A DNA stretch of 36,502 nucleotides from a bacterium (GTDB taxonomy: Bacteria; Armatimonadota; Zipacnadia; Zipacnadales; UBA11051): the NCBI GenBank assembly GCA_021372615.1, contig JAJFUB010000076.1, positions 1 through 36,502 of the forward strand. Reading direction: 5' to 3'. The translations under genes and the position numbers were made by a program. The notes beneath the pieces were generated by a model. The model was not told the origin of the DNA and made no database searches. It worked only from the letters and a program-made list of their open reading frames with translations. Positions 11,979-36,502 of this stretch are shown in pieces (the stretch's first letter is position 1; every line of letters begins with the position of its first letter).

Positions 11979-12045
11979 GTAGTGCGGGCTTCCAGCCCGC
12001 CCGAGGTAGAGCCGGGCCTCGGGGCGGGCTGGAAGCCCGCACTAC
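11979..12045. repeat. GTAGTGCGGGCTTCCAGCCCGC-type inverted pair
   Basis: Two 22-base arms, at 11979-12000 and 12024-12045, are exact inverted copies around a short centre. Each arm is itself a small hairpin. Single arms recur at 15722-15743 and 15931-15952, and the core recurs inside the GH31 gene at 19451-19467. The gap 11871-12176 contains this element and no gene I can support. Confidence 0.85.
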
Positions 12046-15721: not shown

Positions 15722-15952
15722 GTAGTGCGGGCTTCCAGCCCGCATGAGGGCGAGGTCGGATCAGCCTGCCCCGATGGCACATCGGCGCCCGTGCCGTCAA
15801 GCGCCGGAGGCGCGACTCAGTCTAGGCGGGGGCGGAAGCCCCCGTCCCACGGGCCCCCTCCTCCTCCCCATCACGAACCCGGGCGGGGCCCCACGACCGG
15901 ACGGCGACTCTGGACAGCCGCGGTCCACGGGCGGGCTGGAAGCCCGCACTAC
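15722..15952. repeat. Cluster of palindromic elements after lyase gene
   Basis: Arms of the GTAGTGCGGGCTT family lie at 15722-15743 and, inverted, at 15931-15952. Between them, at 15822-15849, is a copy of the CTAGGCGGGGGCGGAAGC family that also occurs at 20828-20855, 20923-20950 and 27391-27419. The gap lies between the convergent lyase and oxidoreductase genes. Confidence 0.8.
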
Positions 15953-18373: not shown

Positions 18374-18447
18374 CGCGTGGGGCCGCGTGTCCTCACGCGG
18401 CCGATGTGCGCGAAGGCTGCGCGCGTGGGGACACGCGCGCCCACGCG
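18374..18447. repeat. Three-way-junction palindromic repeat, copy 2
   Basis: The outer stem is 18374-18380 with 18441-18447. Hairpin 1 is 18381-18402 with loop TCCT, and hairpin 2 is 18419-18440 with loop GGGA. It ends 45 bases before the GH31 start codon. Confidence 0.9.
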
Positions 18448-18492
18448 GTCACCCGCCCACGCGATACACAGCGATACACACAGGAGTGCATC

Positions 18493-20827: not shown

Positions 20828-20950
20828 GGTGACGGGGGCTTCCGCCCCCGCCTAGGCTGAGTCGGCCCTCCGGGCCTCAACTGCGGCGACAAGCACCGTC
20901 AGCGCCGGAGGCGCGGCTCAATCTAGGCGGGGGCGGAAGCCCCCGTCACC
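20828..20950. repeat. Perfect 28-bp inverted repeat between convergent genes
   Basis: The arm at 20828-20855 is the exact reverse complement of 20923-20950. Each arm is itself a hairpin (GGGGGCTTCCGCCCCC). Single arms are also at 15822-15849 and 27391-27419. It fills most of the gap between the GH31 gene and the M55 peptidase gene. Confidence 0.9.
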
Positions 20951-23136: not shown

Positions 23137-23221
23137 GTCGCGTGGGCGCGCGTGTCCTCACGCGCGCACGGCTGCGCATCCCGAACGGCTGCGCGCGTGG
23201 GGACACGCGCGCCTACGCGAC
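23137..23221. repeat. Three-way-junction palindromic repeat, copy 3
   Basis: The outer stem is 23137-23145 with 23213-23221 (one G-T pair). Hairpin 1 is 23146-23167 with loop TCCT, and hairpin 2 is 23191-23212 with loop GGGA. Hairpin 1 has the swapped pairs GCGCGCGTG/CACGCGCGC where copies 1 and 2 have GGCCGCGTG/CACGCGGCC, so both sides changed together. It lies 43 bases upstream of the minus-strand start at 23093. Confidence 0.9.
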
Positions 23222-23236
23222 ACGCCATACGTTCCG

Positions 23237-27390: not shown

Positions 27391-27545
27391 GTGGGACGGG
27401 GGCTTCCGCCCCCGCCTAGTGTGAGCCGCGCCTCCGGCGCTGGGCAGCGCCGTCCCCTCATCCCCTCATCCCCTCATCGCCTCATCGCCTCATCGCCTCA
27501 TCCTCTCATCCTCTCATCCTCTCGTCCTCTCATCCGTCTCCCCAT
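27391..27545. repeat. Palindromic element plus 8-bp minisatellite
   Basis: 27391-27419 is a copy of the GGGGGCTTCCGCCCCC family. From about 27456 to 27545 there are roughly ten TCATCnCC-type units with an 8-base period, the reverse strand of the array at 15665. The gap 27332-27623 holds these and no supported gene. Confidence 0.8.
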
Positions 27546-32761: not shown

Positions 32762-33409
32762 ATGCCCAACCTCTCCCCCCTTCCCCGGGACTTCTACCTC
32801 CAGCCCACGCCCCGCGTCGCGCGGGGGCTGTTGGGCTGTCTGCTGGTCCACGACACCCCCGACGGCCCGACCGGTGGCCTCATCGTCGAGACCGAGGCCT
32901 ATCTGGCCCAGGACGATCCGGGCTGCCACGCCGCCATCGGGCGGACGCGGCGCAATGAGGTGATGTTCGGCCCGCCCGGCCATGCCTATGTCTACCGCAT
33001 CCACCAGGTGGTCTGCCTCAACGTCGTGACGGCGCCTGAGGGGGTGCCTGAGGCGGTGCTCATCCGCGCGCTGGAGCCGACCGTGGGGGCGGACCTCATG
33101 CGCCGCCGCCGCGGACTGGAGCGTTTGGAGGACTTGTGCTCGGGGCCGGGGAAGCTATGCCAGGCCCTCGGGATCACGATGGTGCACAATGGACTCGCCG
33201 TGACGCGGCCGCCGCTGTGCGTAACCAGGGAGCCTGTGGGAGCGGTCACCGACCGCGACCGGTCGCGGTCGGTGACCGCTCCCACAGTGACCGCTCCCCC
33301 AGGCCTGGACATCGTCCAGACCACTCGCATTGGCCTGCGCCCCGAGCGCGGGGCCGATCTGCCACTGCGGTTCTACCTGACCGACAACCCGTTCATCTCA
33401 CGCCGCTAA
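32762..33409 (+). CDS. DNA-3-methyladenine glycosylase (AAG/MPG family) with in-frame palindrome
   Basis: This base-excision repair enzyme removes alkylated purines from DNA. The 215-residue product has LLGCLLVHD, the catalytic VETEAY motif (Glu43/Glu45), CHAAIGRTRRNEVMFGPPGHAYVY, VVTAPEGVPEAVLIRALEP and SGPGKLCQALGI, all standard for the family. Residues about 158-180 are encoded by a perfect 54-bp palindrome and its flank, and look inserted between VTRPPL and the closing LRFYLTDNPFISR. Without it, length would be about 192, the family norm. The insert is near the C-terminal part, away from the catalytic motif, so function may be kept. No ribosome site is clear. Confidence 0.9.
   Translation: MPNLSPLPRDFYLQPTPRVARGLLGCLLVHDTPDGPTGGLIVETEAYLAQDDPGCHAAIGRTRRNEVMFGPPGHAYVYRIHQVVCLNVVTAPEGVPEAVLIRALEPTVGADLMRRRRGLERLEDLCSGPGKLCQALGITMVHNGLAVTRPPLCVTREPVGAVTDRDRSRSVTAPTVTAPPGLDIVQTTRIGLRPERGADLPLRFYLTDNPFISRR
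33234..33287. repeat. Perfect 54-bp palindrome inside glycosylase gene
   Basis: Bases 33234-33260 are the exact reverse complement of 33261-33287, with no spacer. The core GGTCGCGGTCGGTGACCGCT recurs at 36395 and 36458. Confidence 0.95.
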
Positions 33410-36393: not shown

Positions 36394-36502
36394 CGGTCGC
36401 GGTCGGTGACCGCTCCCACGTCCGGCAGCCACACAGGGCAGTTGCGGGAGCGATCACGGTCGCGGTCGGTGACCGCTCCCACGTCCGGCAGCGCAACAGG
36501 GG
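36394..36502. repeat. 63-bp tandem repeat of palindrome family
   Basis: The block starting CGGTCGCGGTCGGTGACC recurs at 36394 and 36457, 63 bases apart, each followed by CCCACGTCCGGCAG. The second copy is cut by the window edge. The core is shared with the palindrome inside the glycosylase gene at 33234-33287. Confidence 0.85.

Follow-up and report, generated by a model that had tools for sequence, protein, structure and literature searches.

A perfect palindrome within a methylpurine-DNA glycosylase gene of an Armatimonadota bacterium is an inverted doublet of a REP-like hairpin repeat

Di Nocera et al. (PMC3733652) describe REPs of the GTAG-1/2 kind as carrying a tag, GW extra bases, a short stem and a 3-nt tail. 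Variants with the tag GTGG are included, among them GTAG-20 of Opitutus terrae. In-frame REP dimers within coding DNA, DNA repair genes included, were described there in 2013, so the kind of element analysed here is already known. REPINs (Bertels and Rainey 2011, PMC3116915) are likewise pairs of inverted REPs able to form a single hairpin. They are almost wholly extragenic: in Pseudomonas fluorescens SBW25, 14 of 1,067 16-mers (~1%) overlap genes (PMC3116915).

The window is the whole stretch of DNA that was analysed, 36,502 nt of a draft Armatimonadota genome (contig C76, which ends at 36502). An open reading frame of 215 amino acids at 32762–33409 on the plus strand matches Pur_DNA_glyco (PF02245) along its entire length (E 1.2e-59, residues 10–210) and shares 51–68% identity with homologs within the order, identifying it as a methylpurine-DNA glycosylase gene of the MPG/AAG family (mpg). 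Residues E45, Y47, H56 and R102 are invariant in an alignment with 12 homologs, and we take them to correspond to the catalytic-site residues E125, Y127, H136 and R182 of human AAG. An inverted-repeat search places a perfect, unstranded 54-bp palindrome at 33234–33287. Its two 27-nt arms (33234–33260 and 33261–33287) are 100% complementary, with a spacer of 0 nt. The sequence-only reading had reported an exact palindrome of this kind, lying in frame in a DNA repair glycosylase gene and adding about 22 residues; the exact arms, the intact reading frame with its Pfam match, and the 22-codon insert delimited below bear this out.

The repeated unit is half of the palindrome, a hairpin repeat of 24–26 nt (YGTGGGAGCGGTCACCGACCGCGACC), and the palindrome is two inverted copies of it. 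Unit 1 (GTGGGAGCGGTCACCGACCGCGAC; 33236–33259, plus strand) comprises the tag GTGG, an unpaired GA, the stem GCGGTC/GACCGC with the loop ACC, and the tail GAC. Unit 2 (33262–33285, minus strand) is inverted relative to unit 1, with a spacer of 2 nt between them. Across 295 copies from 134 regions (1.39 Mb, mostly surrounding repeat copies), the consensus of this mpg-type repeat is Y-GTGG-GA-GCGGTC-ACC-GACCGC-GAC-C. The tag occupies the 5' end in more than 90% of units and is combined with a 6-bp stem and a 3-nt loop; the unpaired GA is present in 98–99% of units and the tail GAC in at least 85%. The borders of the unit are sharp: the base preceding GTGG is C or T in every isolated unit, and the CC past CGA is found in 90% and 79% of isolated units. 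At one stem position, 245 units have a C-G pair and 40 the compensating G-C pair; 10 carry other combinations, four of which are wobble pairs. This covariation indicates that it is the structure of the hairpin that is conserved.

The insert in mpg extends beyond the doublet. Sequence inspection reveals a 15-nt tandem duplication at the doublet end (33272–33301, plus strand), with GTGACCGCTCCCACA at 33272–33286 followed by GTGACCGCTCCCCCA at 33287–33301, together encoding VTAPT-VTAPP. Because of this duplication, the insert is best read as 66 nt, or 22 codons (VGAVTDRDRSRSVTAPTVTAPP; 33236–33301, plus strand), corresponding to residues 159–180; the homolog gap and the AlphaFold model were used to infer this extent. 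A matching piece of the REP also trails a doublet in a sulfatase gene (C92:133252). Comparison with close homologs, a check that the sequence-only reading had proposed, supports the insertion: 16–21 residues are missing at this point from ~40 readable MPG homologs, of which 27 belong to genomes in the same order. In the AlphaFold model, built with 12 homologs, residues 159–175 have a pLDDT below 50 and lie between strands 152–155 and 184–187, while the mean pLDDT is 88. The fold is thus intact, and the insert probably forms a disordered and presumably neutral loop on it.

By anatomy, the closest relatives of the repeat are the GTAG-type REPs. It shares with GTAG-1/2 REPs, including those of Pseudomonas, a tag beside a short stem-loop, an unpaired GA of the GW type, a 3-nt loop and a 3-nt tail. 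Both also run to hundreds of copies, form inverted dimers whose tags face outward, show compensating stem variants and have some copies within genes, repair genes among them. It differs in having GTGG rather than GTAG as its tag, a different stem and loop, an in-gene share of 37%, an Armatimonadota host and no transposase gene of its own found in the assembly. Its head, GTGGGAG, also starts the GI REP of SBW25 (GTGGGAGGGGGCTTGC; PMC3116915). As in REPINs, inverted doublets that can fold into one hairpin are frequent; unlike in REPINs, the spacers vary in length and sequence, and 44 of 120 classifiable sites lie in frame in genes. The intragenic REPs of Opitutus terrae, as described in PMC3733652, are similar in their GTGG tags, dimer spacers of 1–2 nt in some families, double uvrA inserts and inserts in other repair genes, although their host belongs to Verrucomicrobia and ours to Armatimonadota. 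The parallel with Rickettsia palindromic elements drawn by the sequence-only reading is fair at the functional level, since both are, by description, in-frame palindromic inserts that add a protein segment to many unrelated genes. It does not extend to closest kinship, given the GTAG-type anatomy; the host phylum also differs, and most mpg-type copies lie outside genes.

At up to 3 mismatches, 306 copies of the unit are present in the 6.41-Mb genome, against 0 for a reversed control pattern, a number that chance could not produce by a wide margin. No copy at 1 mismatch was found in any of 290 other genomes of the phylum, none of which is from the same genus, and a single 2-mismatch match occurs in one genome of the order. 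The copies group into 160 sites, 40 of which are too near a sequence end to be judged. Among the 295 units are 61 inverted doublets with the tag outside. Their spacers measure 0–33 nt and vary in sequence, and since they differ between doublets, it is not evident that a doublet moves as one. The recurrence of the palindrome core at the window end, also noted earlier, holds in part: two single units (36396–36419 and, 63 nt further in the same orientation, 36459–36482, both on the minus strand and non-coding) lie near the contig end, and these are half-palindromes, not whole copies. The accompanying argument that so large a palindrome should be unstable was overstated, because 54 bp is a modest length and the genome contains more than 50 inverted doublets of the unit; nothing was found that points to active upkeep, and the suggested recent arrival is likewise unsupported, as the genomes compared include none of the same genus. 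Many of the 171 contigs of this draft assembly start or stop in the repeat. One of them, contig C73, begins with six units in a tandem array with a period of 27 nt (L139).

Counting the copies that lie in frame within genes, as had also been suggested, gave 44 of the 120 classifiable sites (37%) at which an ORF runs uninterrupted across the element and both flanks show coding signal, against 76 where this is not so; gene calls came from a codon model trained on the fetched regions, and Pfam confirms ~5/6 of the host ORFs, with ~1/6 unmatched. In a control, the same test scored 69% of random positions as intragenic, so genes are avoided about twofold by REP sites, a far weaker avoidance than in SBW25. 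A rough estimate in which 1/3 of insertions keep the frame, 2/3 of those are open and the remainder are purged predicts ~33% in genes; the observed share is 37%. No gene broken by a REP was found. Sites with coding flanks in differing frames were considered as possible gene breaks, and this was rejected for the inspected sites, all of which are boundaries between adjacent genes.

Host genes were identified by Pfam. Among them are MPG, MutS (two sites), a second protein with MutS domain V and UvrA (two sites, five units). The others include a primase-like CHC2/AAA protein, TrpE, an RluD-like pseudouridine synthase, valyl-tRNA synthetase, a NuoF-like protein, a pyruvate formate lyase-like protein, glycogen debranching enzyme, an ECF-type ABC transporter, sulfatases and glycosidases. 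Where the position is visible, the inserts sit in linkers or loops: between the two domains of TrpE, in the RluD-like protein between its S4 and catalytic domains (a 13-residue gap relative to a solved RluD homolog), between the anticodon and C-terminal domains of valyl-tRNA synthetase, and in MutS at a 21-residue gap relative to a solved homolog. In the glycogen debranching enzyme (L192, C169:19257-19417), a 69-nt tandem array of three units lies in frame in the linker joining the N and C domains, with 23 residues per repeat. The UvrA-like ORF L123:2198-7858 on contig C47 is of double length (1887 aa). It has two UvrA interaction domains, and its two REP sites together hold five units.

We consider it highly probable that the mpg palindrome represents two inverted units of a species-specific GTAG-1/2 REP that spreads in the manner of RAYT-associated repeats, with in-frame copies tolerated and frame-breaking ones purged. 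The agent of spread would most likely be a Y1 (HUH) transposase of the RAYT/TnpA-REP type acting on single-stranded REP units, and insertions would reach genes as well as intergenic DNA, after which selection would purge copies that break the frame. A compact doublet measures ~51 nt (17 codons) and is stop-free in two of three frames; because of these properties, and because it often falls in a loop or linker, a host protein could tolerate it. In mpg, the doublet and the 15-nt tandem duplication would have added 22 residues to a variable loop, leaving the catalytic residues untouched.

The genome holds seven Y1 transposase (Y1_Tnp) genes, none of which is flanked by the mpg-type repeat within 1.5 kb. 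Two of the Y1 proteins resemble the NCBIfam REP-associated tyrosine transposase, one of them above the curated cut-off. Mobilisation of the repeat by a RAYT therefore remains our inference. Since the repeat interrupts many contigs, the assembly could lack a flanked RAYT. Alternatively, the repeat may be served in trans by a related RAYT, for instance the one on contig C34, which has a repeat beginning GTAGGAGC. In Marinomonas REPs, a GTGG tag redirects cleavage to CC (PMC8266576); the combination of GTGG with a conserved CC in the mpg-type repeat would fit this guide rule, an analogy that is suggestive only. Six of the seven Y1 genes (L081-L084, L086, L087) each lie amid another palindromic repeat family of their own, and the genome thus hosts many REP-transposase pairs at once.

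The doublets take two structural forms that differ by location: mostly compact with unequal arms in genes, and mostly equal-armed with longer spacers elsewhere. Unequal arms, that is, one C-type and one G-type unit, occur in 17 of 23 in-gene doublets versus 3 of 28 outside (p 6.5e-6), with identical arms in 25 of the 28 outside genes. Similarly, a spacer of at most 3 nt is found in 19 of 27 in-gene inverted doublets versus 7 of 30 outside (p 5e-4). In compact doublets the arms are nearly invariant, while the central 4 nt vary. Moreover, all 12 isolated 50-nt in-gene doublets are read in a single frame, despite a second one being open (p ~5e-4), encoding VG(A/G)V... peptides that end in (S/T)VT(A/P)PT. 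Two readings fit: genes may be purged of perfect hairpins, or the unequal-arm doublet may be a separate element that travels in this form. We tentatively entertain the possibility that one REP family has split in two, with an equal-arm, long-spacer doublet between genes and a compact, unequal-arm 50-nt doublet within genes and in one frame. If this were true, the in-gene doublet would effectively be a mobile element that is translated, in a bacterium distant from Rickettsia.

A rival reading, in which the compact unequal-arm doublet is a selfish coding element akin to those of Rickettsia, specialised for genes and distinct from the intergenic equal-arm form, draws on the same skew in arms and spacers and on the near-invariant arms around a variable centre. 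We regard it as rather unlikely, as survival bias gives the same pattern when long perfect hairpins are purged and in-frame lengths persist. The mpg copy also counts against it: its arms are identical, which makes it an exception among in-gene doublets. RNA folding gives the mpg copy −52 kcal/mol compared with about −43 for unequal-arm forms.

Instead of being transposed as such, a doublet might have arisen on the spot: a lone unit would have inserted first and then been duplicated, in tandem or by fold-back, as the DNA replicated. The 15-nt duplication adjoining the mpg doublet and the 27-nt and 69-nt tandem arrays of the unit elsewhere in the genome speak for this. It could explain local growth only, however: some 160 dispersed sites need movement between loci, and fold-back of one unit cannot yield unequal-arm doublets. 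As an account of the doublets it seems improbable to us, and spread of the unit as a mobile REP remains the preferred reading.

It appears less probable still that the inserts are functional, with REP-coded loops altering repair enzymes such as MPG, MutS and UvrA, for example towards a mutator or regulated state, and being kept by selection. Four DNA repair genes are struck, with two sites each in MutS and UvrA; there is a bias in reading frame; and Di Nocera et al. saw a similar leaning in other phyla and proposed a function (PMC3733652). Repair genes nevertheless account for only 4 of ~42 host ORFs, most of which are unrelated (sulfatases, glycosidases, transporters), and the MPG loop is variable and predicted to be disordered. 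uvrA and mutS are also easy targets, being long and well annotated, and the leaning to repair genes, confounded by gene length and ease of annotation, is suggestive.

That the inverted half arose from mis-assembly of single repeats is scarcely credible, even in a draft of 171 contigs that often start or stop in the repeat, as the mpg frame is exactly kept on both sides, other compact doublets recur in frame in many genes, and many doublets have unequal arms, which a fold-back error would not make.

What is new here is the phylum, the in-gene share (37% versus ~1% in SBW25) and the partition into two forms; our literature search found no paper on REP elements in Armatimonadetes. In-gene REPs have so far been treated as rare oddities. 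The ~44 in-frame cases in this genome allow one to ask by which route they enter, which frames and protein loops tolerate them, and why unequal arms prevail in genes, and they supply naturally occurring peptide insertions in MutS, UvrA, MPG and other enzymes. They also constitute an independent case, from another phylum, of the reported leaning to DNA repair genes.

Other palindromic repeats were observed in the window. One is a second REP family, tagged GTAG (GTAGTGCGGGCTTCCAGCCCGC) and present partly as inverted doublets, at 11979–12000, 12024–12045, 15722–15743 and 15931–15952. Copies of a third family (CTAGGCGGGGGCGGAAGCCCCCGTC) lie at 15822–15846, 20831–20855, 20923–20947 and 27395–27419; this family is also found in region L032, and several copies of it lie to either side of a Y1 transposase gene on contig C40. 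The fourth, a GC-rich palindromic family (CGCGCGTGGGGACACGCGCG), is located at 1061–1134, 18374–18451 and 23137–23223.
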